The translations under genes were made by a program, and so were the position numbers. 64,000 bases of DNA from Aquabacterium fontiphilum. Lineage in GTDB: Bacteria; Pseudomonadota; Gammaproteobacteria; Burkholderiales; Burkholderiaceae_C. The number at the start of each line of letters is the position of its first letter. Position 1 is the stretch's first letter. Positions 48,500 through 58,543 of the stretch are shown here, one piece after another. Below the pieces are notes generated by a model, which searched no databases, was not told where the DNA came from, and was given only the letters and a program-made list of their open reading frames with translations. Location: NCBI RefSeq assembly GCF_009909205.1, contig NZ_JAAAPN010000008.1, positions 62,001-126,000 of the forward strand. Reading direction: 5' to 3'.

Positions 48500-48755
48500 C
48501 CGCCAGGGGCCCATGCCCCCAGCGGCGCCTCGGGGGTTCCGAGAAGCGCAGGCAGGGCCCGGGCGCGGCTTCGCGTGCGAAGTCGCGCTTCCCTTATCTG
48601 ACTTGCCGTGGCTGTTTGAGCGCAGTGGCGGGCGCATGGCGCGCGCCGCGTAGCGAGTTCCACGGCACCGGGCCATGGCGAGCATCGCAGGAGCGTCCTG
48701 CCTTCCCAGGCAGGACCACCCACGTGAAGCCGCTGGGGGCGTGGGCCGCTGGCGG
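48500..48755 (+). repeat. Structured intergenic repeat, right copy bordering the R-M island
   Basis: This is an inverted relative of 40491-40720. Hairpins: a 12-base stem GCGCGGCTTCGC/GCGAAGTCGCGC (48563-48588, one G-T pair) and GTCCTGCC/GGCAGGAC (48695-48716). The second differs from the left copy at paired positions (T-A becomes C-G), so pairing is kept. It fills the 303-base space between hsdM and fadD; I see no gene in it. Confidence 0.75.
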
Positions 48756-48798
48756 GGGCGGCGCACGCCGCGCCCCTCAAACCAGCATCAACGCAGCT

Positions 48799-50520
48799 TC
48801 AAGCTGCCTTTTTCTTCCGCGCCATCGCGGCCAGTTCCTCATCGCGCAGATCCTTGCGCAGGATCTTGCCCACGTTGCTCATGGGCAGGTCTTCGCGGAA
48901 CTCGATGTGCTTGGGCCGCTTGTAGCCGGTCAGCTGCTCTTTGCAGTAGGCGGCCACGTCGTCTTCGGTCAGGCTGTAGTCCTTGCGCACCACGAACAGC
49001 TTCACGGCTTCGCCCGAGCGCTCGTCGGGCACGCCGATCGCGCAGCACTCGGTCACGCCGGGGTGCATGTTCACGACCTGCTCGATCTCGTTGGGGTAGA
49101 CGTTGAAGCCCGACACCAGGATCATGTCCTTCTTGCGGTCCACGATCTTGATCAGGCCGTCTTCGGCCATCACGCCGATGTCGCCGGTGCGGAAGAAGCC
49201 GTCAGGCGTCATCACCTTGGCGGTTTCTTCGGGGCGATTCCAGTAGCCTGCCATCACCTGCGGGCCGCGCACGGCGATCTCGCCGGCTTCGCCCTGGGCC
49301 ACGGGCTGGCCTTGCTCGTCGAGCAGCGCCACCTCGGTGGATGGCAGCGGGTAACCGATGGCGCCGTTGTAGCTGCGGTTATCCAGGCGGTTGACGGTCA
49401 CCACAGGCGAGGTCTCTGACAGGCCGTAGCCTTCGACGATGGGCACGCCGGTGATGCGCTGCCAAGCCTCGGCCGTGGCCTGCTGCACGGCCATGCCGCC
49501 GCCGTTGCATACCTTCAGGCGCGAGAAGTCGAGCTGCTCAAAGTCGGGCTCTTCGACCAGCGCGTTGTACAGCGTGTTGACGGCCGGGAACTGCGTGATC
49601 TTGAACTTCTTGAGCGTCTCGATCATCTTGCCGATGTTGCGGGCGTTGTCGATCATGACGTTCATGGTGCCCATGCGTGCGCTCAGGAAGTAGCACACCG
49701 TCAGCGCGAACACGTGGTACAGCGGCAGCGCCACCACGTTGACGCCCTGGCCTTCGACCTTGTCGAGCTCGGGCTTGAACCAGGCCTCGCACTGCAGGAT
49801 GTTGGCCACCAGGTTGCGGTGGGTCAGCGTGGCGCCCTTGGAGACGCCGGTGGTGCCGCCGGTGTACTGCAGGAAGGCCACATCGCTGCCCTTGAGCGTG
49901 GGCCGGGTGTAGCTCAGGCGCTTGCCTTCGGTCAGGGCCCGCTTCATGGGCGTGAGCTGGCGGCGGCCATCGTCGGGCAGCTGGAAGTCGATCACGTGCT
50001 TGTCCACGTTGCGTGACTTGTAGGTCATCCACGGGCCCTTGATGGCGCCGAACACGTCACCCAGCGAGGCCAGCACGATGTGCTTGACCGGTGTGCGGTC
50101 GATCACCTCCTGCACGGTGGGGCCGAAGTACTCGAGCACGATGATGGCTTCGGCGCCCGCGTCGTTGAGCTGGTGCTCCAGCTCGCGCGGGGTGTACATC
50201 GGGTTGACGTTGACCACCACGTAGCCGGCGCGCAGGATGCCGGCAATGGCCACGGCATAGTGCGGCACGTTGGGCATCATCACCGCCACGCGTGCGCCCT
50301 TCGACAGGCGCTGGGCCTGCAGCCAGGCAGCCAGTTGCTTCGACTGGGCGTCGATCTCGGCAAACGTCCAGCGCGAGCCCATGTAGGCCATCATGTCCTT
50401 GCGCGCGTGCGTGCGGAAGGCGTCTTCCAGCAGCTCCATCAGCGAAGGGTAGGTATCGGGGTTGATGGTGGCGGGCACACCGGTGCCGTACTGCTTCAAC
50501 CAGGGCTTGTCCAGGGCCAT
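48799..50520 (-). CDS. fadD: Long-chain fatty-acid-CoA ligase
   Basis: This 573-residue AMP-binding enzyme activates fatty acids with ATP and CoA. ATG 50520 (MALDKPWLKQYG) is chosen over 50559 because the extra residues are not family-like. Motifs: YTGGTTGVSKGATLTHRNL (P-loop), YGLSETSPVV, GDIGVMAEDG, DRKKDMILVSGFNVYP and the C-terminal catalytic Lys in SNVGKILRKDLR. It probably feeds beta-oxidation with the acyl-CoA dehydrogenase at 56.7 kb. It is transcribed as a single gene. Confidence 0.92.
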   Translation of the reverse strand: MALDKPWLKQYGTGVPATINPDTYPSLMELLEDAFRTHARKDMMAYMGSRWTFAEIDAQSKQLAAWLQAQRLSKGARVAVMMPNVPHYAVAIAGILRAGYVVVNVNPMYTPRELEHQLNDAGAEAIIVLEYFGPTVQEVIDRTPVKHIVLASLGDVFGAIKGPWMTYKSRNVDKHVIDFQLPDDGRRQLTPMKRALTEGKRLSYTRPTLKGSDVAFLQYTGGTTGVSKGATLTHRNLVANILQCEAWFKPELDKVEGQGVNVVALPLYHVFALTVCYFLSARMGTMNVMIDNARNIGKMIETLKKFKITQFPAVNTLYNALVEEPDFEQLDFSRLKVCNGGGMAVQQATAEAWQRITGVPIVEGYGLSETSPVVTVNRLDNRSYNGAIGYPLPSTEVALLDEQGQPVAQGEAGEIAVRGPQVMAGYWNRPEETAKVMTPDGFFRTGDIGVMAEDGLIKIVDRKKDMILVSGFNVYPNEIEQVVNMHPGVTECCAIGVPDERSGEAVKLFVVRKDYSLTEDDVAAYCKEQLTGYKRPKHIEFREDLPMSNVGKILRKDLRDEELAAMARKKKAA

Positions 50521-50550
50521 GAGCACATCCAATCCAGGTAACAATTGATC

Positions 50551-50568
50551 TGACAACAAGTAGTGTCA
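50551..50568. promoter_or_regulatory. TGAC-N10-GTCA site before fadD, similar to one before the BVMO
   Basis: TGACAACA-N6-GTCA lies 31 bases upstream of the fadD start. The same pattern, TGACAACA-N6-GTCA, occurs at 27610-27627 downstream of the BVMO promoter, with identical spacing. Both are inverted repeats with TGAC/GTCA arms and could bind a shared regulator. Confidence 0.35.
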
Positions 50569-50628
50569 TTGTGCCTGGGGGTGTTGCGTCTGTTAACCCC
50601 GTGAGCCGGGTGCTGGGGGCAATCTGGA

Positions 50629-52818
50629 TCAGGGGTTTTCCCAAATGTCACCCGGTGGGGCGCTACCCGCGGCGGCTGCCTGCGCCAGGATGTCGTCTCG
50701 CGACACGAGCTGGCCCTGCCAGAGCGCGTAGACCCGGTCGGTGTCGCGCAGGCTTTGAATGCGGTGGGTGATGATGAAGCGCCCGCAGCCCAGGGCCTCG
50801 ACCGCGGCCTGCACCCGCTGTTCGGTCTCGGTGTCGAGGTGGCTGGTGTACTCGTCGAGCAGCAGAAAGCGGGGCTGTTTGTACAGCGCGCGCGCCAGCA
50901 GCACGCGCTGCTTCTGCCCGCCCGACAGCGAGCTGCCCATGCTGCCCACCAGGGTCTGGTAGCCCATGGGCATGCGCGCGATGTCATCGTGGATGCAGGC
51001 CAGGCGGGCGGCCGCCTCGACGCGCTCGGGTGTGGCATGCGCGTCGTTCATCGCGATGTTGTCGTAGATCGAACAGGTGAACAGCTGGTCGTCCTGCAGC
51101 ACCACGCCCAGCGCCGCGCGAAAGGCCTCGGCCCCCATGCGGTCCATGGACACGCCGTTGAGCAGCACTTCGCCGGACTCGGGCTGCAACTGGCCACACA
51201 GAATCTTCATCAGCGTGGATTTGCCGCAGCCCGACGGGCCGACGATGGCCACGGCCTCGCCGCTTGTCAGCGTCAGGTTGACCTTGTCCAGCACGGGGGC
51301 CTCGCCCGCGCCATAACGAAAGGTCACGTCGCGCAGTGCCAGCGTCATGGGTGCATCCGCAGGCCAGGCCGCCTGGCGCGCGGGCGATGCGGCGGCCGTG
51401 GCGGGCGCGGCGGGCTCCGGCTCGCTCAGCACGATGTCGGCCAGACGCTCGCCCTGCAGCTTGAGCAGCCGCAGGTTGATCAGCCGTTCGAGCAGCTCGG
51501 AGACGCGCTGCAGAAACTGGCCCTTGTAGGCCAGAAAAGCCACCAGCATGCCGATGGTGAACTGCTCCTGGATGATCATCTGCGCCGCGAGAAAGAGCAC
51601 CACGCCTTGCTCGACCGCGCCGACCACGCCATTGATGCCCTGGTGCAGCATGGCGATGCGCTCCTGGCGTACGCGCGCGTTGACCATCTGGGCCTGCTGG
51701 TTCATCCAGCCGCCGACCCGCCAGCCGGGCTGCGCAAAGAACTTGATGGCCGCCATGCCACGCAGCGTCTCGAGCACATAGGTCTGGGCATGGGCCTCAC
51801 GCACGATGAGCTCTTCTGCCGCCTGGCGATAGGGCTTGAACACCGCAAAGCGCACGGCGGTGTAGATGAGGGCAACGATGAGTACGATCAGCGCCAGCTG
51901 CGGGCTGTAGAGGAACATCAGGCCGAGCGTGACCAGGCTGACCACGCCGTCGAGCACGGCTTCGACCACGTGGTTGGTCAAGGTGTCCTGAATGGTGTTG
52001 ACCGATCCGAAGCGCGACAGCACGTCGCCGGTGTGGCGCTTGTCGAAGTACGACAGCGGCAGCTTGAGCATGTAGCGAAACACATTGGTGCTCGATGACA
52101 GCCGCCAGCGCAGGCTGGCGCCCAGCACGATCCAGCTGCGCAGCAAGCGTGTGCCCAGCGCCATCAGGCCGAGCATGGCCGTGGCCACCGTGAGCACCAC
52201 CAGCAGCGGCGCATCGCGGGTGACGACGACGTCGTCGATGATCCACTGGCTGAGCATGGGCATGAGGATGACGAACACCTCCAGCACGATGGACAGCACC
52301 GCCATTTGCGCAAAGGCACGGCCCAGGCCGCTCTGGCCGGCGAACAGGGTGCGCAGGTCGAAGGGTGTTTTGTCCTCCTGACGCTGAAAGCCGGTGCTGG
52401 GGGTGAGCTCCAGCGCCACGCCGGTGAAGTGCGGGCTGGCTTCCTTCATGCTCAGGGTGCGCTCACCCACCGCGGGGTCGTGGATGGTGAGCTGACGCGC
52501 GTCGGCCTTCACGAGCACCACGAAGTGGTTCATGTCCCAGTGCAGGACGCAGGGCGTCTGCAACTGCGGCAGCTCGTCGAGTTCCAGCCGCAAGGCGCGC
52601 GTGGACAGCCCGAGCTCGGTGGCCACGTCCATGAGGCGAGCCAGGGTGGCGCCGCGCGAGGAGATCTCGAAACGGCGGCGCAGCGTGAGCAGGTCGGTCT
52701 CATGCCCATGGGCCGAGGCGATCATGGCCAGGCAGGCCAGGCCGCACTCGGTCGCCTCGGATTGCAGGATGAGCGGGGCGCGGCGCCTGGGCCACAGCGA
52801 CAACAGGTTGTGGGACAT
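50629..52818 (-). CDS. Peptidase-containing ABC exporter (C39 peptidase, CvaB/bacteriocin type)
   Basis: This 729-residue exporter cleaves the leader of double-glycine peptides and exports them. An active C39 peptidase occupies residues about 15-140: Gln19 (oxyanion), Cys25 (EATECGLACL), His98 (HWDMNHFVVL) and Asp114 (IHDPAVG) are all present. Six membrane helices follow (about 165-440), then an ATPase with Walker A GPSGCGKST (about residue 525), SLSGGQKQR and LLLDEYTSHLD. It is the last gene of a three-gene minus-strand set, 25 bases after the HlyD gene. The likely cargo is the peptide at 55698-55883. Confidence 0.92.
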   Translation of the reverse strand: MSHNLLSLWPRRRAPLILQSEATECGLACLAMIASAHGHETDLLTLRRRFEISSRGATLARLMDVATELGLSTRALRLELDELPQLQTPCVLHWDMNHFVVLVKADARQLTIHDPAVGERTLSMKEASPHFTGVALELTPSTGFQRQEDKTPFDLRTLFAGQSGLGRAFAQMAVLSIVLEVFVILMPMLSQWIIDDVVVTRDAPLLVVLTVATAMLGLMALGTRLLRSWIVLGASLRWRLSSSTNVFRYMLKLPLSYFDKRHTGDVLSRFGSVNTIQDTLTNHVVEAVLDGVVSLVTLGLMFLYSPQLALIVLIVALIYTAVRFAVFKPYRQAAEELIVREAHAQTYVLETLRGMAAIKFFAQPGWRVGGWMNQQAQMVNARVRQERIAMLHQGINGVVGAVEQGVVLFLAAQMIIQEQFTIGMLVAFLAYKGQFLQRVSELLERLINLRLLKLQGERLADIVLSEPEPAAPATAAASPARQAAWPADAPMTLALRDVTFRYGAGEAPVLDKVNLTLTSGEAVAIVGPSGCGKSTLMKILCGQLQPESGEVLLNGVSMDRMGAEAFRAALGVVLQDDQLFTCSIYDNIAMNDAHATPERVEAAARLACIHDDIARMPMGYQTLVGSMGSSLSGGQKQRVLLARALYKQPRFLLLDEYTSHLDTETEQRVQAAVEALGCGRFIITHRIQSLRDTDRVYALWQGQLVSRDDILAQAAAAGSAPPGDIWENP

Positions 52819-52843
52819 GGTCAGGCGGTTCAGGTCGGACGGC

Positions 52844-54091
52844 TCACAGTCGGCCGGTGAAGGCGTAAAGCGGGTCGAGCATCCAGCGGATGAGCCGGCG
52901 GCGGTCGATCTCGATGTCGGCGCTCAGGGTCTGGCCAGGCTTGAGGGCGATTTCGGTGCCGTAGGCTTCGACCGAGGGCCGCTGCAGCGCCACGCGCACC
53001 AGAAAGAAGGCGCGTGGATCACGCGCATCGGCCTGCGGGGGGCGTACGTCATGGCGCGAGACGCTGCGCACCGTGCCGTGGTACTGGCCAAAGCGTTGGT
53101 AAGGAAAGGCGTCGTAGCTCACGCGCACCGCCTGGCCTTCGCGGATGAAGCCGATCGCCGTGCTGGGCACATGGAGCACGGCTTCCATGGATGTATCGTC
53201 AGGCACCACCGACACCAGCGCATGGCCGGCAGGCAATGCCTGACCCACGCTGGCCTGCAGGCCCGAGATCACGCCGTCCCGCGGCGCGCGCAACACCATC
53301 TTGTGGTTGCCCCGGCGTTGCACCTGCTCTTGCTGCAGGCTCAGCAGCTCGCGGGCCAGGCCGGCATGCTCGGCTTCGTGCTGGGCCTGCAGGCGTTGTG
53401 TTTCATCGCGGGCCTCGGCCAGCGCAGCCTCGGCAGCGCTGCGTTGTCGCCGCAAGGCCTGCATGCGCGCTTCCTGCTCCAGCACGGTCTGTCGCTGTTG
53501 CTCGACCTGCATGCCCGAGACGATCTGCTCAGCCAGCAATGGCGTGAGCTGCGCCAGCTGCCGGCGCGAGGAGTCGATCTGCTGACTCAGCAGGCGGGTC
53601 TCTTCGTCGAGTGCAATCAGGTCGCGTCGCGCCTGGGCCGCGCGTTGCGCCACCGCGGCGCGCTCAGCCTGTTGCGCCTGGGCGCGATGGTGTTGCTGGG
53701 CTTGCATGCGCGCCTGCTGGCTGGCCAGGTTGTCTTCCACCAGCACGGCGGTGTCGCCGGCATCGCTGTGGCGTTCGTGGACCACTTCGGCGATCACCTC
53801 GCCCGCGCGCACGCGCTGGCCTTCGGCCACATGCAGCTGGCGGACCGTACCGGCTTCGGGCACCATGACCGTGGCCACGCCGATGCGGGGCTGCACCACG
53901 CCTTGCACCCGCTCCTTGCGGGTGTAGGAGCCCAGCACGAGCAGGGCGAGCACGGCGGCGCACATGGCGGCAAAGAACAGCGTGAGCCATCCGGCGCCCA
54001 CCGGGCGAATGTGAATGGGCGGGCCGGCGCTGTGGTCCGAGCGTGCGGCCAGGGCTTCCTGCCGGAACAGCGAGGGCTGGGGCGAGCTCAT
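52844..54091 (-). CDS. HlyD-family membrane fusion protein (CvaA type)
   Basis: This 415-residue adaptor has a short cytoplasmic head, one membrane helix (LTLFFAAMCAAVLALLVLGSY), a lipoyl-like half (VMVPEAGTVRQLHVAEGQRVRAGEVI), a long coiled-coil rich in Gln/Arg/Ala (about residues 110-275), the second lipoyl half (VLRAPRDGVISGLQASVGQ) and a C-terminal barrel. It would bridge the ABC exporter and the TolC-like channel. Its ATG overlaps the TolC gene stop (ATGA at 54088-54091), indicating coupling. Confidence 0.9.
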   Translation of the reverse strand: MSSPQPSLFRQEALAARSDHSAGPPIHIRPVGAGWLTLFFAAMCAAVLALLVLGSYTRKERVQGVVQPRIGVATVMVPEAGTVRQLHVAEGQRVRAGEVIAEVVHERHSDAGDTAVLVEDNLASQQARMQAQQHHRAQAQQAERAAVAQRAAQARRDLIALDEETRLLSQQIDSSRRQLAQLTPLLAEQIVSGMQVEQQRQTVLEQEARMQALRRQRSAAEAALAEARDETQRLQAQHEAEHAGLARELLSLQQEQVQRRGNHKMVLRAPRDGVISGLQASVGQALPAGHALVSVVPDDTSMEAVLHVPSTAIGFIREGQAVRVSYDAFPYQRFGQYHGTVRSVSRHDVRPPQADARDPRAFFLVRVALQRPSVEAYGTEIALKPGQTLSADIEIDRRRLIRWMLDPLYAFTGRL

Positions 54092-55545
54092 GGTGAGGGC
54101 TCCGTGTGGCGCTCGGGCGCGAGGGCCGTGGTCAAAGGCGTGATGTCTTCCGGGGTCAGTCTGTCGAGCAGGCTGAGGATGCGCACCTGGGCCTTCAGGG
54201 CCTGGATGCGGCTGCTGGCCTGCTGAGCGAGGCTGTCGTGGATGCGTTGTTGCGCGCCCAGCAGTTCCTGGTGCGTGCGCAGGCCGGCCAGGTAGGCCTT
54301 GTGCACCGCGTCCAGCGTGCGGCGCGCGGTGGCTTCCAGCTCGCGGTGCGACGCCACCATCCGCTGGCTGGTGTGCAGGGTCTCGTAGGCATCCAGCAGG
54401 TCGTGGGTGAGTTCGTCGCGCGTCTGGTCGCGGTGCGCCTCGGCCTGTTCGAGCTGCGCCAGCGCTTCTCGCGTGCGCGCCTGCTGGTAGCCGCTGGTGA
54501 ACAGGGGCCAGTTGACCTGGACACCCATGGCGCGGGTGTGGATGTCCTGTCGCTCGTTCACGCCGTCGAACTGCTGGCTCTGGCGCGCGCGCGAGACCTC
54601 GGCGACCACGTCGACCGTCGGCTGCCAGCGTTCGGCCTGGCGCGAAACGAGGGCGCTGCGGGCGGCCTCCAGCGCGTGTTCGTGTGCCTGATGGGTGGCG
54701 TTGCGGGCCAGGAGTTGCGCCAGCCCTTCGTTCGCAGGCGGCACAGCCACCACATTGAGTGGCATCGCGGGGCGCAGGCCAGCGGGTACTTGCACGGGTT
54801 GGCCCGCCAGGCGCTCGACGCTCAGCCGCGCGCTGCTCAGTCGCAACTGCAGCGATTGGCGCATGGCCCGCGCCTGTTCCAGCAGGCTGCGGGTTTCGAG
54901 TTGTTCCACCATCGTGCCGACACCGGCTTGCACGCGGCGCTCGCCCGCGCGCCAGTGGGCTTCAAGCGCGGTGATGTGCTTGTCGTTCAGCCGCAGGGCC
55001 TCCGCCGCTTCAACGGCGTCCAGCCAAGCAAGGCTCAGCGCCAGGGCAGTTTGCTGCCGCTGCGCACGCGCCAGCCGGGCGGCCTGCTGCGCCTGGGCTT
55101 GCAGGCTGTCGGCATGGGCGCGTTCGGCCGCGCGCCACAGTGGCTGGGTCAGCGTCAGGCCGAGCGCCGAGGCCGGCGTGCGCAGGGGCTGGTCGTTGTA
55201 GCGCTGTCGGCTTAGCGTGCTGCTGGCGCGGGCGTCCACGCGGGGGCGCCAAGCGGCAATCCGGGCTTGCTCGTGGCTGGCTTCGGCCCCATCTGCGGCT
55301 GCTTGTTCGCGTCGGTTGGCAGCGGTGCGGTGGGCCGCTTCCAGAAGCCCTCGCCAGTCGGTTGCAGCCTGCTCCGGTGCGCCAGAGACAGGCTCGGCAG
55401 GCAGGCTCAGGCTCAGGCTCAGACTCAGGCGCAGCGGCTCGGACGCAAGCGGGGTCGTGCGGCCCGTGACAGGGGTCAGGCCCAGCACCGTGACAACGCC
55501 AAGGCAGGAAGACACGGCGAGGGCGTGCAGCAGGCGCTCAAACAT
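54088..55545 (-). CDS. Outer-membrane channel, TolC family
   Basis: This 485-residue TolC-type protein has a signal peptide (LAVSSCLGVVTVLGLT) and two helical repeats with outer-membrane strand regions (VDARASSTLSRQRY and VDVVAEVSRARQSQQF). A run of Ser-Leu dipeptides near residue 40 is encoded by a six-base tandem repeat (55403-55426). It is first of the TolC-HlyD-ABC operon and forms the outer-membrane exit of the type I secretion system. The start ATG 55545 lies downstream of a strong terminator of the peptide gene. Confidence 0.88.
   Translation of the reverse strand: MFERLLHALAVSSCLGVVTVLGLTPVTGRTTPLASEPLRLSLSLSLSLPAEPVSGAPEQAATDWRGLLEAAHRTAANRREQAAADGAEASHEQARIAAWRPRVDARASSTLSRQRYNDQPLRTPASALGLTLTQPLWRAAERAHADSLQAQAQQAARLARAQRQQTALALSLAWLDAVEAAEALRLNDKHITALEAHWRAGERRVQAGVGTMVEQLETRSLLEQARAMRQSLQLRLSSARLSVERLAGQPVQVPAGLRPAMPLNVVAVPPANEGLAQLLARNATHQAHEHALEAARSALVSRQAERWQPTVDVVAEVSRARQSQQFDGVNERQDIHTRAMGVQVNWPLFTSGYQQARTREALAQLEQAEAHRDQTRDELTHDLLDAYETLHTSQRMVASHRELEATARRTLDAVHKAYLAGLRTHQELLGAQQRIHDSLAQQASSRIQALKAQVRILSLLDRLTPEDITPLTTALAPERHTEPSP
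55403..55426. repeat. Hexanucleotide tandem repeat inside the TolC gene
   Basis: Four six-base units (AGGCTC three times, then AGACTC) encode Ser-Leu repeats on the minus strand. Unit gain or loss stays in frame and would change only the length of a linker after the signal peptide. Confidence 0.75.
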
Positions 55546-55595
55546 GGGTACAACACTGGCCGCGGCGAGGACGGAGGCGTCGATGCGCCGGGCTC

Positions 55596-55640
55596 AAAAA
55601 ACTGACATGCCCGCAACAGGAGAGGTTGCGGGCATGTCAG
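55596..55640 (-). terminator. Strong terminator of the double-glycine peptide gene
   Basis: CTGACATGCCCGCAAC (55602-55617) and GTTGCGGGCATGTCAG (55625-55640) form a 16-base perfect stem with a 7-base loop. On the minus strand it is followed by TTTTTT (55596-55601). It lies between the peptide gene and the TolC gene, so the peptide is either transcribed alone or mostly terminated before the exporter genes. Confidence 0.95.
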
Positions 55641-55697
55641 GGCGATCAAGCACGGGGAGGGATCATCCAACCCGCGCGACACACCGCAGGGGGCGGA

Positions 55698-55883
55698 TCA
55701 GGGCGCCTTGGGGAAGCCCAGCAACACAGCGAAGGTGTTGTACAGCGGGCGGCCGTATGTGTTCCACTCTTGCTTGTGGATGTTGTCGATCAGCTTGATG
55801 CCGGTGGGTTTGAAGAGGCCCAGCTCAGGATCCAGAGCGCCGCCGCTGACTTGCTTGATTTGTTCTTGGTTCAGGGTTTGCAT
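55698..55883 (-). CDS. Double-glycine leader peptide, candidate bacteriocin/secreted peptide
   Basis: This 61-residue gene has a leader MQTLNQEQIKQVSGG with Gly-Gly at -2/-1, Val at -4, Ile at -7 and Leu at -12, matching the leader pattern cut by C39 peptidase exporters. The predicted mature peptide is 46 residues, begins ALDPELGLFKPTG, contains no Cys, and is rich in Leu, Pro and aromatic residues (EWNTYGRPLYNTF). A C39 ABC exporter with HlyD and TolC partners is encoded just downstream on the same strand. I do not recognise the core. ATG 55883 has only a weak ribosome site. No immunity gene is identified. Confidence 0.75.
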   Translation of the reverse strand: MQTLNQEQIKQVSGGALDPELGLFKPTGIKLIDNIHKQEWNTYGRPLYNTFAVLLGFPKAP

Positions 55884-56004
55884 GATGCTTGACTAGTAGG
55901 TTGATGAAAGTGTGTGCTAGCCAATGCATCTTCAGACTGTTAAGGATTTAACGTAAGGCGTATTTGCCCTGGCGGTTCGTCCGTGTGCTCATCTGGTTGC
56001 CCTG

Positions 56005-56673
56005 TTAGACAGATGGGGGTGGCGTGGCCAGATCGGTCAGCCACAGGTCGAGTCCGCGCCATGCATAGAAGGTGTGCTCCACCACGGTGTCGAGCGGGGC
56101 GTCGTAGCCGCGCTCCATCCACAGCATGGCCACCTGGCCGACCATGCCGATGCAGCCCGTGATGACGTAGTCGATGTTCAGGTGGGCCGCCTTGTCGCCG
56201 CAGCGCTGCCGAAAGCGCAAGCGCAGCAGGTCGACGATGTGGCCGTACTGCTGGGCGACGCGGTGCTCGGCACTCAGCCCTGCGGCCGAGAAGTCCTTGA
56301 TCAGGATGCGGGCCCGGCGGGGATCGCTCTGGATGTGTTCGAAGAAGGCGCGCAGCCCTGCCCGCGCGCGCAAGGTGAGTTCGCCGGGCGCGTTCAGGAT
56401 GGCGTCCTGCACCCGGGCAGCCGCTTCCTGGCAGGCCACATCGTGCACGGCCTGGTAACAGGCGTGCACGCTGTCGAAGTGCTCGTGGAAGTAGCGGTCG
56501 GCCAGCCGCGCTTGTGCGCAGATCAGCCGCTTGGTGGCTTGCTGGTAGCCCAGATCGCCGAACACCTGCAGCCCTGCGGCAATCAGGCGTTCGCGTCGTT
56601 CATCGCGCCGTTCGTCGGCCGAGGCGCCGCCGTAGCGGCGCTGGCCATTGGGTAAGGTCGTGATGACCTGCAT
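56005..56673 (-). CDS. TetR-family regulator
   Basis: This 222-residue protein opens with QRRYGGASADERRDERRERL then a TetR helix-turn-helix (LIAAGLQVFGDLGYQQATKR ... ADRYFHEHFDSVHACYQAV). It shares the RRYGG tail and the RYF-x-E-x-FDS helix with the TetR at 37170, so they are related. It lies 46 bases downstream of the acyl-CoA dehydrogenase gene on the same strand and could regulate it, or the peptide system; neither is proven. Confidence 0.85.
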   Translation of the reverse strand: MQVITTLPNGQRRYGGASADERRDERRERLIAAGLQVFGDLGYQQATKRLICAQARLADRYFHEHFDSVHACYQAVHDVACQEAAARVQDAILNAPGELTLRARAGLRAFFEHIQSDPRRARILIKDFSAAGLSAEHRVAQQYGHIVDLLRLRFRQRCGDKAAHLNIDYVITGCIGMVGQVAMLWMERGYDAPLDTVVEHTFYAWRGLDLWLTDLATPPPSV

Positions 56674-56719
56674 GCGTCTGGGCTGTCAGCAAGCCACGGG
56701 CGAACCCGTGGCCTGATGA

Positions 56720-58543
56720 TCAGGTGAACATGAAATGCTCGTTGTCCATCTGCATGACGGTGTCCGTCGGGGCCAGCATGGACTTCTTGTGCGCGTCGGC
56801 ACGCGGCAGCAGGCGGTCGAAGTAGAACTCGGCCGTCTGGATCTTGGCCTTGTAGAACTCCGGCGTTTCCTTGCCGCCACCCTTGGTCAGCTTCTCGTTG
56901 GCGACCAGGGCTTGTTGCAGCCAGAAGTGGCCCATCATCACGTAGCCGGCGTACATCAGGTAGTCGGCGCAGGCCGAGCTGACGATGTCGCGGTCCTTGG
57001 CGGCGCGCAGCATGATGCGCAGCGTCAGGCCCTTCCATTGCAGCGCGCGCTTGAAGCAGGCGCGCGCCATCGAGCCGATCGGGCCGCCATCCAGCAGGTG
57101 GGGCTTGGCCTGGGCAGTCATGATGTTGGTGAACTCGCTGACCACTTTGCCGCGCGTTTGCAGCAGCACCTTGCGGCCCAGCAGGTCGAGCGCCTGGATG
57201 CCGGTGGTGCCTTCGTACAGCGTGGCGATGCGCGCGTCGCGGGCGATCAGCTCCATGCCGTGTTCCTTGATGTAGCCGTGGCCACCGAACACCTGCATGC
57301 CGATGTTGGCGCACTCCAGGCCCAGCTCGGTGATGAAGCCCTTGAGGATCGGGGTGTAGAAGCCGAGCTTGTCGTCATAGTGCTCGTACTGCTTCATGTC
57401 GCCCTTGGCGGCGCCGGCCACCATGTGGTCGGCCAGCTTGGCGGCGCTGTAGATCATGGCGCGGGCGCCTTCGGCCACGGCCTTTTGCGTCAGCAGCATG
57501 CGGCGCACGTCGGCGTGCCAGATCAGCGCGTCGGCGGTGTGCTCGGCGTCCTTCTTGCCGCTCAGGGCGCGCATGGAGCGGCGCTCCTTGGCGTAGGGCA
57601 GGGCGCCCTGGTACGACAGCTCGGCGTGGGCCAGGCCTTGCAGGGCCGTGCCGATGCGGGCGCTGTTCATGAAGGTGAACATGGCTTCCAGGCCCTTGTT
57701 GGGCTGGGCAATCATGTAGCCGGTGGCGCCGTCGAAGTTCATCACGCAGGTGGCCGAGGCGCGGATGCCCATCTTGTGCTCGAGCGCGCCGGCCTTGACC
57801 GAGTTGCGCTCGCCCATCGATCCGTCGGCGTTGACGACGAACTTGGGCACGATGAACAGCGAGATGCCCTTGGTGCCCTTGGGCGCATCGGGCAGGCGGG
57901 CCAGCACGATGTGGATGATGTTCTCGGTCAGGTCGTGTTCGCCCGAGGAGATGAAGATCTTGGTGCCGGTGAGCTTGTAGGTGCCGTCAGCCTGGGGCTC
58001 GGCCTTGGTCTTGACCTGGCCCAGGTCGGTGCCGCACTGGGGCTCGGTCAGGCACATGGTGCCAGCCCAGCGGCCTTCGATCAGTGGGGGCAGGTAGGTG
58101 GCCTTTTGCTTGTCGTTGCCATGCAGGTAGATGGTGTTCATGCAGCCCAGGCTCAGGCCGGGGTACATGGTGAAGGGCCAGTTGGCCGTGCCCATCATTT
58201 CCGACTTCAGCAGGTTGAGCGACATGGGCAGCTCCTGGCCGCCGTATTCCTTGGGGTGGGCCAGACCTTGCCAGCCGCCTGCGGCGTACTCGGCATAGGC
58301 TTCCTTGTAGCCCTTGGGCGTGGTGACTTCGCCGTCCTGGATGGTGCAGCCTTCCTGGTCTCCCGTCAGGTACAGCGGGCTCAGCACCTCTTCGCAGAAG
58401 GTGGCGCAGCCTTCCAGAATGGCGTCCACCATGTCAGGGGTGGCGTCTTCGCCGTTGGGCAGGGCTGCGTAGTGCGACGGGTAGTCGAACACTTCGTTGA
58501 GCAGAAAGCGCATGTCGCGCAAAGGGGCCTTGTACTGCGGCAT
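56720..58543 (-). CDS. Acyl-CoA dehydrogenase (600-residue class)
   Basis: This 607-residue flavoenzyme starts at ATG 58543 behind GAGGTG. It has an N-terminal helical domain, CLTEPQCGTDLGQVKTKAEP with the FAD/substrate motif, KIFISSGEHD, and catalytic Glu in TLYEGTTGIQALDLLG; the C-terminal extra domain of the large class follows. It would oxidise acyl-CoA to enoyl-CoA and pass electrons to ETF. Two palindromic sites in its promoter suggest TetR control. Confidence 0.9.
   Translation of the reverse strand: MPQYKAPLRDMRFLLNEVFDYPSHYAALPNGEDATPDMVDAILEGCATFCEEVLSPLYLTGDQEGCTIQDGEVTTPKGYKEAYAEYAAGGWQGLAHPKEYGGQELPMSLNLLKSEMMGTANWPFTMYPGLSLGCMNTIYLHGNDKQKATYLPPLIEGRWAGTMCLTEPQCGTDLGQVKTKAEPQADGTYKLTGTKIFISSGEHDLTENIIHIVLARLPDAPKGTKGISLFIVPKFVVNADGSMGERNSVKAGALEHKMGIRASATCVMNFDGATGYMIAQPNKGLEAMFTFMNSARIGTALQGLAHAELSYQGALPYAKERRSMRALSGKKDAEHTADALIWHADVRRMLLTQKAVAEGARAMIYSAAKLADHMVAGAAKGDMKQYEHYDDKLGFYTPILKGFITELGLECANIGMQVFGGHGYIKEHGMELIARDARIATLYEGTTGIQALDLLGRKVLLQTRGKVVSEFTNIMTAQAKPHLLDGGPIGSMARACFKRALQWKGLTLRIMLRAAKDRDIVSSACADYLMYAGYVMMGHFWLQQALVANEKLTKGGGKETPEFYKAKIQTAEFYFDRLLPRADAHKKSMLAPTDTVMQMDNEHFMFT

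Follow-up and report, generated by a model that had tools for sequence, protein, structure and literature searches.

The window examined here is a 64,000-nucleotide stretch of Aquabacterium fontiphilum (GCF_009909205.1, contig NZ_JAAAPN010000008.1, positions 62,001-126,000), and our subject is a small peptide gene within it together with the secretion cassette that it adjoins, all on the minus strand. The precursor peptide gene (55698..55883; 61 codons plus stop), identified by its open reading frame (ORF) call, its orthologues and the selection acting on it, lies upstream of genes for a TolC-family outer membrane channel (54088..55545; OEP, 6.6e-37), a HlyD-family adaptor (52844..54091; HlyD_3, 6.5e-21) and a C39 peptidase-containing ABC exporter (50629..52818; Peptidase_C39, 2.6e-35; ABC_membrane, 6.2e-36; ABC_tran, 3.1e-34). 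All three components that class II microcins need, exporter, adaptor and TolC, are present. The exporter matches PCAT1 and ComA chains over its full length in a PDB search, and its C39 peptidase domain (residues 15-141; 52396..52776) retains the catalytic Gln19, Cys25, His98 and Asp114. The precursor consists of a 15-residue double-glycine (GG) leader (55839..55883), the putative secretion and cleavage signal, and a 46-residue core (55701..55838), delimited by sequence comparison and called core A, which has a motif in common with a second core, B. Blocks encoding an acyl-CoA ligase, and a TetR regulator with an acyl-CoA dehydrogenase, flank the cassette. The original prediction, made from the letters of this stretch, had claimed this gene order, a Cys-free core and intact catalytic residues; all were confirmed, with the letters as quoted and no Cys anywhere in the peptide.

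The peptide gene and its transcript

Is so short a frame a gene? Short ORFs are plentiful here, 101 of at least 30 residues overlapping 48500-58500 and some lying antisense to the peptide. A chance frame is nevertheless very improbable, being contradicted by the positive coding score of the ORF (16.5), by the co-occurrence of leader and exporter described below, and by a ratio of nonsynonymous to synonymous differences (pN/pS) of 0.18 for the core in nine genomes. A search of 100 genomes found full-length orthologues (80-87% identity) in eight others, all within the genus, and a 46% relative in G020 (G and L labels are our own, for genomes and loci). Among the matches listed, the records with orthologues include A. 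commune DSM 11901 and A. lacunae KMB7. Across the genomes carrying core A (type A), the median ratio of nonsynonymous to synonymous substitution rates (dN/dS) of the core is 0.12 (36 pairs).

As in exported GG-leader peptides, the N-terminal leader is short, ends in GG or GA and has hydrophobic positions ahead of that end, and the peptide's own genome encodes a C39 ABC exporter with intact catalytic residues. That genome contains one leader peptide and three C39 matches; one C39 exporter has the catalytic Cys, while the other two matches have Pro at that position (translations read by eye). The leader had been called textbook, which it is not in full: it is short, it has Gln at position 8, at which Glu stands in 19 of the 21 leaders compared, and three of nine type A leaders end in GA. 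Structure prediction, of modest confidence (mean predicted local distance difference test score 69), gives one helix in the leader and two in the core. The calculated mass of the 46-residue core is 5194.80 (monoisotopic; average 5198.0).

A terminator-like hairpin of 16 pairs followed by six T (55602..55640, minus strand) separates the peptide gene from TolC. Its folding energy is -31.6 kcal/mol (z -8.3); the scan that found it expects 1.9 chance matches of its own, weaker, kind in the scanned region. On inspection by eye, each of the nine type A loci has a hairpin 3' of its peptide gene; that of G029 has a poor T run. Since this hairpin stands between peptide and TolC, the peptide is probably made from a separate short transcript of its own. 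No sigma-70-like site was found in 54000-56800, and an Rfam scan of 50000-57000 returned nothing at gathering score. Well-conserved DNA directly upstream of the peptide gene is common to the window (55884-56004) and G029 (L038); five other type A genomes have a different common stretch about 100 bases upstream, and no upstream element common to all nine A loci was seen. Among type A loci, peptide gene and TolC are on the same strand in G000 and G029 and divergent in G001, G011, G013, G017 and G028.

One leader and exporter across the genus

To place the cassette in its genus, 42 Aquabacterium genomes, the window's and 41 others, were compared; they represent one genus and are not independent of one another. 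A 16-residue leader profile gave 41 matches at E ≤0.005 in 26 genomes, the next match standing at 0.077; it was built from leaders of these same genomes, many of them exporter-adjacent, and is biased toward finding such leaders. Exporter orthologues were sought at E 1e-120 or better with 11 candidates scored per genome, a search that short exporter fragments may escape, and we drew the line for orthology at ≥66% identity; G002, which has a 45% relative, has no leader. Exporter orthologues occur in 25 of the 42 genomes, and all 25 carry at least one leader peptide. The leader appears in one of the 17 genomes without an exporter orthologue, G015, whose assembly is 53% complete. Sixteen genomes gave no leader match, nine of which have completeness of 90% or more and contamination of 5% or less, and the silence of these 16 is not explained by the bias of the profile. 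In lists compiled by hand, 22 of the 31 genomes of that quality have leader and exporter and nine have neither; Fisher values computed from such lists take no account of the non-independence of the genomes.

Coordinates read by eye put a leader peptide beside TolC, about 3 kb away from the exporter gene start, in 21 of the 25 genomes. In G003, G020 and G041 both lie at contig ends, and G039 has the two apart. No exporter gene lies within 8 kb on either side of the type A peptide in G024, whose exporter is on another contig. The claim that a peptide cargo travels with its own C39 type I exporter gained support, and the description of the peptide as an orphan was rejected: it has full-length orthologues in eight genomes, and its leader is one of 41 in the genus, present in every exporter genome. 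Homologues lacking a GG leader or a neighbouring exporter, which had been named as grounds for doubt, do exist in part, namely the three GA leaders and the G024 copy that lies away from its exporter, and leave the case for export unhurt.

Grouped by hand, the cores of these peptides fall into types A (10), B (10), C (4), D (1), E (4), F (3), G (2), H (3), I (2), J (1) and K (1), and a further I copy in G024 lies below the profile cut (E 0.33). In G022, G025, G024, G031 and one G019 locus the exporter adjoins a DeoR-type regulator and a glycerol-type FAD oxidoreductase (families assigned from the G031 genes), and the cores at this site are C in G022 and G025, D in G024, E in G031, and H with I in G019. 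At the level of sequence, the same site exchanges its cargo, and leader and pump serve exchangeable cores. In the exporter tree, in which some supports are moderate, type A carriers fall on both sides of the midpoint root.

Several of the other loci have features of their own. Groups H and I occur in tandem, resembling two-peptide bacteriocins, in G019 (L051:13282-13741), G003 (L093:7884 onward) and G024 (L097:7273 onward). Group F cores of G019 (L050:5448-5627) and G024 (L096, two identical copies) contain GxxxGxxxG. Cores C and D carry the same leader and are rich in Cys (four and six in the two tested); they are exporter-adjacent in G022, G025 and G024, and loci with such cores are L039, L041, L095, L094 and L047. 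At type B exporter loci a response-regulator/histidine-kinase protein adjoins the exporter (L046:6229-7401). A stop occurs within the exporter sequences matched in G017, G032 and G020 and in the second G019 copy; that second G019 exporter (L051:8373-10352) has no match to C39 residues 1-81 and adjoins intact-looking H and I peptides. The group K leader peptide of G025 has 38 residues and is possibly cut short (L091:2616).

Cores A and B together account for 20 of the 41 leader peptides. They have in common the motif IDxIHxxE(W/Y)NxYGxPLxN, from whose second half one divergent copy (G020) departs; core B has the leader and motif in common with A and differs in the first part of the core. Seven core positions (I, D, I, H, E, P, L) do not vary among the 12 cores compared, and Asp33, His36 and Glu39, all within one predicted helix (residues 26-43), are invariant in 18 of 18 A/B sequences. 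Alignments of two full A cores with B cores score far above shuffles (z 11.8-14.1), and among the 190 pairs of 20 representative cores, A-B is the only cross-group similarity above z 3.5.

The core had not been recognized in the original prediction, and database searches agree, with no significant match for A/B cores in Pfam, NCBIfam, PHROGs (only E 0.038-0.46) or PDB (only E 0.8). A plasmid search gave no match to P0001 at E 1, a phage search gave two records of a single phage at E 0.7, and 13 pattern matches in viral contigs included no relative. A full-peptide profile run on 399 genomes of the family found three members of the genus, along with two matches that fall within larger frames (356 and 1190 residues). 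In the order (399 genomes) and the phylum (398 genomes), a core profile found, apart from the window, four distinct matches, all of them weak (E 0.003-0.009): three lie in frames of at least 390 residues and the fourth in a 77-residue frame of G988 that has no GG leader. A search of one literature library found no description of double-glycine peptides in Aquabacterium, and the Aquabacterium bacteriocin papers listed looked unrelated by title. The A/B cores are a new peptide family within a known kind of system.

Selection on core A and the search for an immunity gene

C39-pump peptides of Gram-negative bacteria are usually assumed to be bacteriocins, and the system was originally proposed as bacteriocin-like. 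Selection on the cassette was compared across nine type A genomes, the G024 exporter being taken from its other contig. Mean identity and pN/pS are 91% and 0.18 for core A, 71% and 0.53 for the leader, 79% and 0.41 for the exporter, 63% and 0.60 for HlyD, 50% and 0.69 for TolC, 61% and 0.46 for the TetR neighbour, and 85% and 0.38 for the acyl-CoA dehydrogenase neighbour. Between the window and G013, core A is 96% identical and the exporter 67%. Counted by eye, 11 of 15 leader sites vary against 10 of 46 core sites (p 0.0005). Mean synonymous difference (pS) is 0.335 for the core, which being short scatters between 0.15 and 0.74 in printed pairs, and 0.336 for the exporter. Within the cassette nothing is better conserved than core A, whose synonymous divergence equals that of the exporter. 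Because these two mean pS values match, a recent spread of the peptide gene was rejected as the explanation for this conservation. Compared across the window (54088-55545) and its counterparts in eight genomes, TolC changes far faster than the exporter with which it works.

Class II microcins have close immunity proteins, though perhaps not all of them, as far as the consulted account goes (PMC9746304), and six of six active plant-associated candidates have a candidate immunity frame beside them in the part of the report available. No nearby immunity protein was found in the window, where the largest gap between called genes from acyl-CoA ligase to TetR is 152 bp; frames under 25 residues and antisense frames were not judged. 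Neighbours were further compared among 31 peptide places, drawn from the 41 leaders plus the one below the cut and including six of ten A and eight of ten B copies. Flanks extended up to 4 kb and less at contig ends, the short ones including 773 bases upstream of A in G020, 640 upstream of B in G004 C99 and 750 downstream of H in G003; groups J and K had no partner. Pairs from the same neighbourhood say nothing on immunity, because all their neighbours are in common. Where the same core sits in separate neighbourhoods, clean pairs have zero or one short match in common: for A, G020 against five other A places; for B, G022, G025 and G015 against G016 (exporter copy) and G034; for C, G020 against G022, G025 and G015; for F, G019 against G024; and for H with I, G019 and G003 against G024. 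Less clean are the exporter-side B copies (G016, G034) against those of G016 C2:331k, G004 C99 and G039, with 3-11 matches consisting of short stretches at the peptide and weak (23-35%) long-frame matches, none of them a small candidate gene. The B copies of G022 and G025 have larger genes in common with G016 C2:331k, G004 C99 and G039 and so lie in a common neighbourhood. The statement that no immunity gene is seen holds within the window's gene calls and these 31 places.

Function of the peptide and known systems

C39 peptidase-containing ABC exporters recognize the leader of their substrate, cleave after GG and export the remainder. The peptide is very probably cleaved and exported by its cassette in the same way. 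Made from its own short transcript, as the hairpin suggests, the precursor would be recognized through its 15-residue leader by the C39 domain and cut after Gly15, and the ABC-HlyD-TolC tunnel would put the 46-residue core outside the cell; family precedent makes these last steps near certain. What might the core do there? We tentatively favour a dedicated export cassette whose core A, once outside, would act on cells of the producer's own kind, serving as a biofilm or surface protein or as a signal, and not as a diversifying killer. Near-constancy of the core, and the fact that no linked immunity gene was found, make core A more likely social than a killer, and on this analysis a self-directed role is slightly favoured over a bacteriocin.

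It is quite possible, on the other hand, that core A is a class II, microcin-like bacteriocin whose producer lacks the target, is protected by the exporter or has an unlinked immunity gene, the other cores belonging to the same arsenal. A GG leader with C39-HlyD-TolC export is what the available account of class II microcins describes (PMC9746304); cores turn over at one site, H and I form tandem pairs, and F cores have glycine zippers like those reported, in the part consulted, for Cdz proteins (PMC5380434). Core A itself fits less well, being more conserved than pump and housekeeping neighbour, not clearly cationic (+0.9 in the window and -0.1 in G013 at pH 7), and devoid of the GxxxG zipper, and so of the GxxxGxxxG of Cdz. 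Several observations nevertheless weigh against a self-directed role. About ten cores on the same pump and leader, some glycine-zipper or tandem, resemble bacteriocin arsenals, and strong purifying selection is compatible with a bacteriocin too and does not exclude one. The linked-gene test is weak for core A, as its sole separate place is the divergent G020 copy with 773 bases upstream; four of the five other A places have TetR and dehydrogenase in common with the window or its inverted version. Weak leader-type matches link A/B members to Bacteriocin_IIc (PF10439; best E 0.084, 3 of 18 members) and lactobin A/cerein 7B (TIGR03949; best E 0.041, 5 of 18). The window peptide matches no Pfam or NCBIfam family, and the 18 relatives do not reach the curated cut-offs of these two either. 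The label bacteriocin-like is weakened for core A by its unusual conservation and by the finding of no linked immunity gene; other lineages carry bacteriocin-like cores.

Two further proposals bear on the range of cores and targets. A/B may be a genus-specific extracellular signal or surface protein under strong selection while the cores of relatives are partly toxin-like, so that one channel serves a social molecule and an arsenal; we consider this rather unlikely. That the peptide is aimed at a different organism, for instance a eukaryotic host or grazer, or has another extracellular task such as metal binding, is improbable. The former has a precedent in RaxX, a precursor of about 60 residues clustered with exporter genes in the available account (PMC6637879), and for the latter one may speculate on the invariant Asp33, His36 and Glu39 of the predicted helix; the flanking blocks encode acyl-CoA ligase, TetR and acyl-CoA dehydrogenase, and no modifying enzyme lies beside the peptide.

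The wider interest is that one leader and pump serve about ten cores, one far more constrained than the pump and found with no immunity gene. This makes the question of weapon or social molecule directly testable, for example in A. commune DSM 11901 and A. lacunae KMB7.

Among known systems, of which we rely on the portions of the reports available, the class II microcins of Enterobacterales (microcin V type, CvaAB-TolC) likewise combine a GG or GA leader, C39 ABC exporter, adaptor and TolC (PMC9746304); they differ in having, as a rule, a nearby immunity protein, none having been found here, and their cores were compared with ours via Pfam and NCBIfam alone. Cdz of Caulobacter (CdzABCD, CdzI) has type I export and G[G/A/S] leaders, and the F groups of G019 and G024 have its GxxxGxxxG; core A is without the zipper, no CdzI-like gene was found here, and killing by F cores is putative. 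RaxX/RaxAB of Xanthomonas, similar in precursor size and clustering (PMC6637879), differs in that RaxX is tyrosine-sulfated, with no sulfotransferase among the genes beside the window peptide. In Neisseria gonorrhoeae the nap peptides, which also have GG leaders and a C39 peptidase, act on the producer by autolysis and not on competitor species; they are cationic and depend on a separate C39 peptidase and a FapF-like channel, with the immunity-protein-like NapI beside them (PMC11798529). EbfG1-4 with PteB, of the cyanobacterium Synechococcus elongatus, differ in lying as four genes side by side and in that EbfG1-3 form amyloid. They too are small GG- or GA-leader proteins with distinct mature parts and a C39 transporter; no killing role is described in the available parts of the reports, and, exported with PteB, they serve biofilm formation (PMC4997328, PMC9981879).

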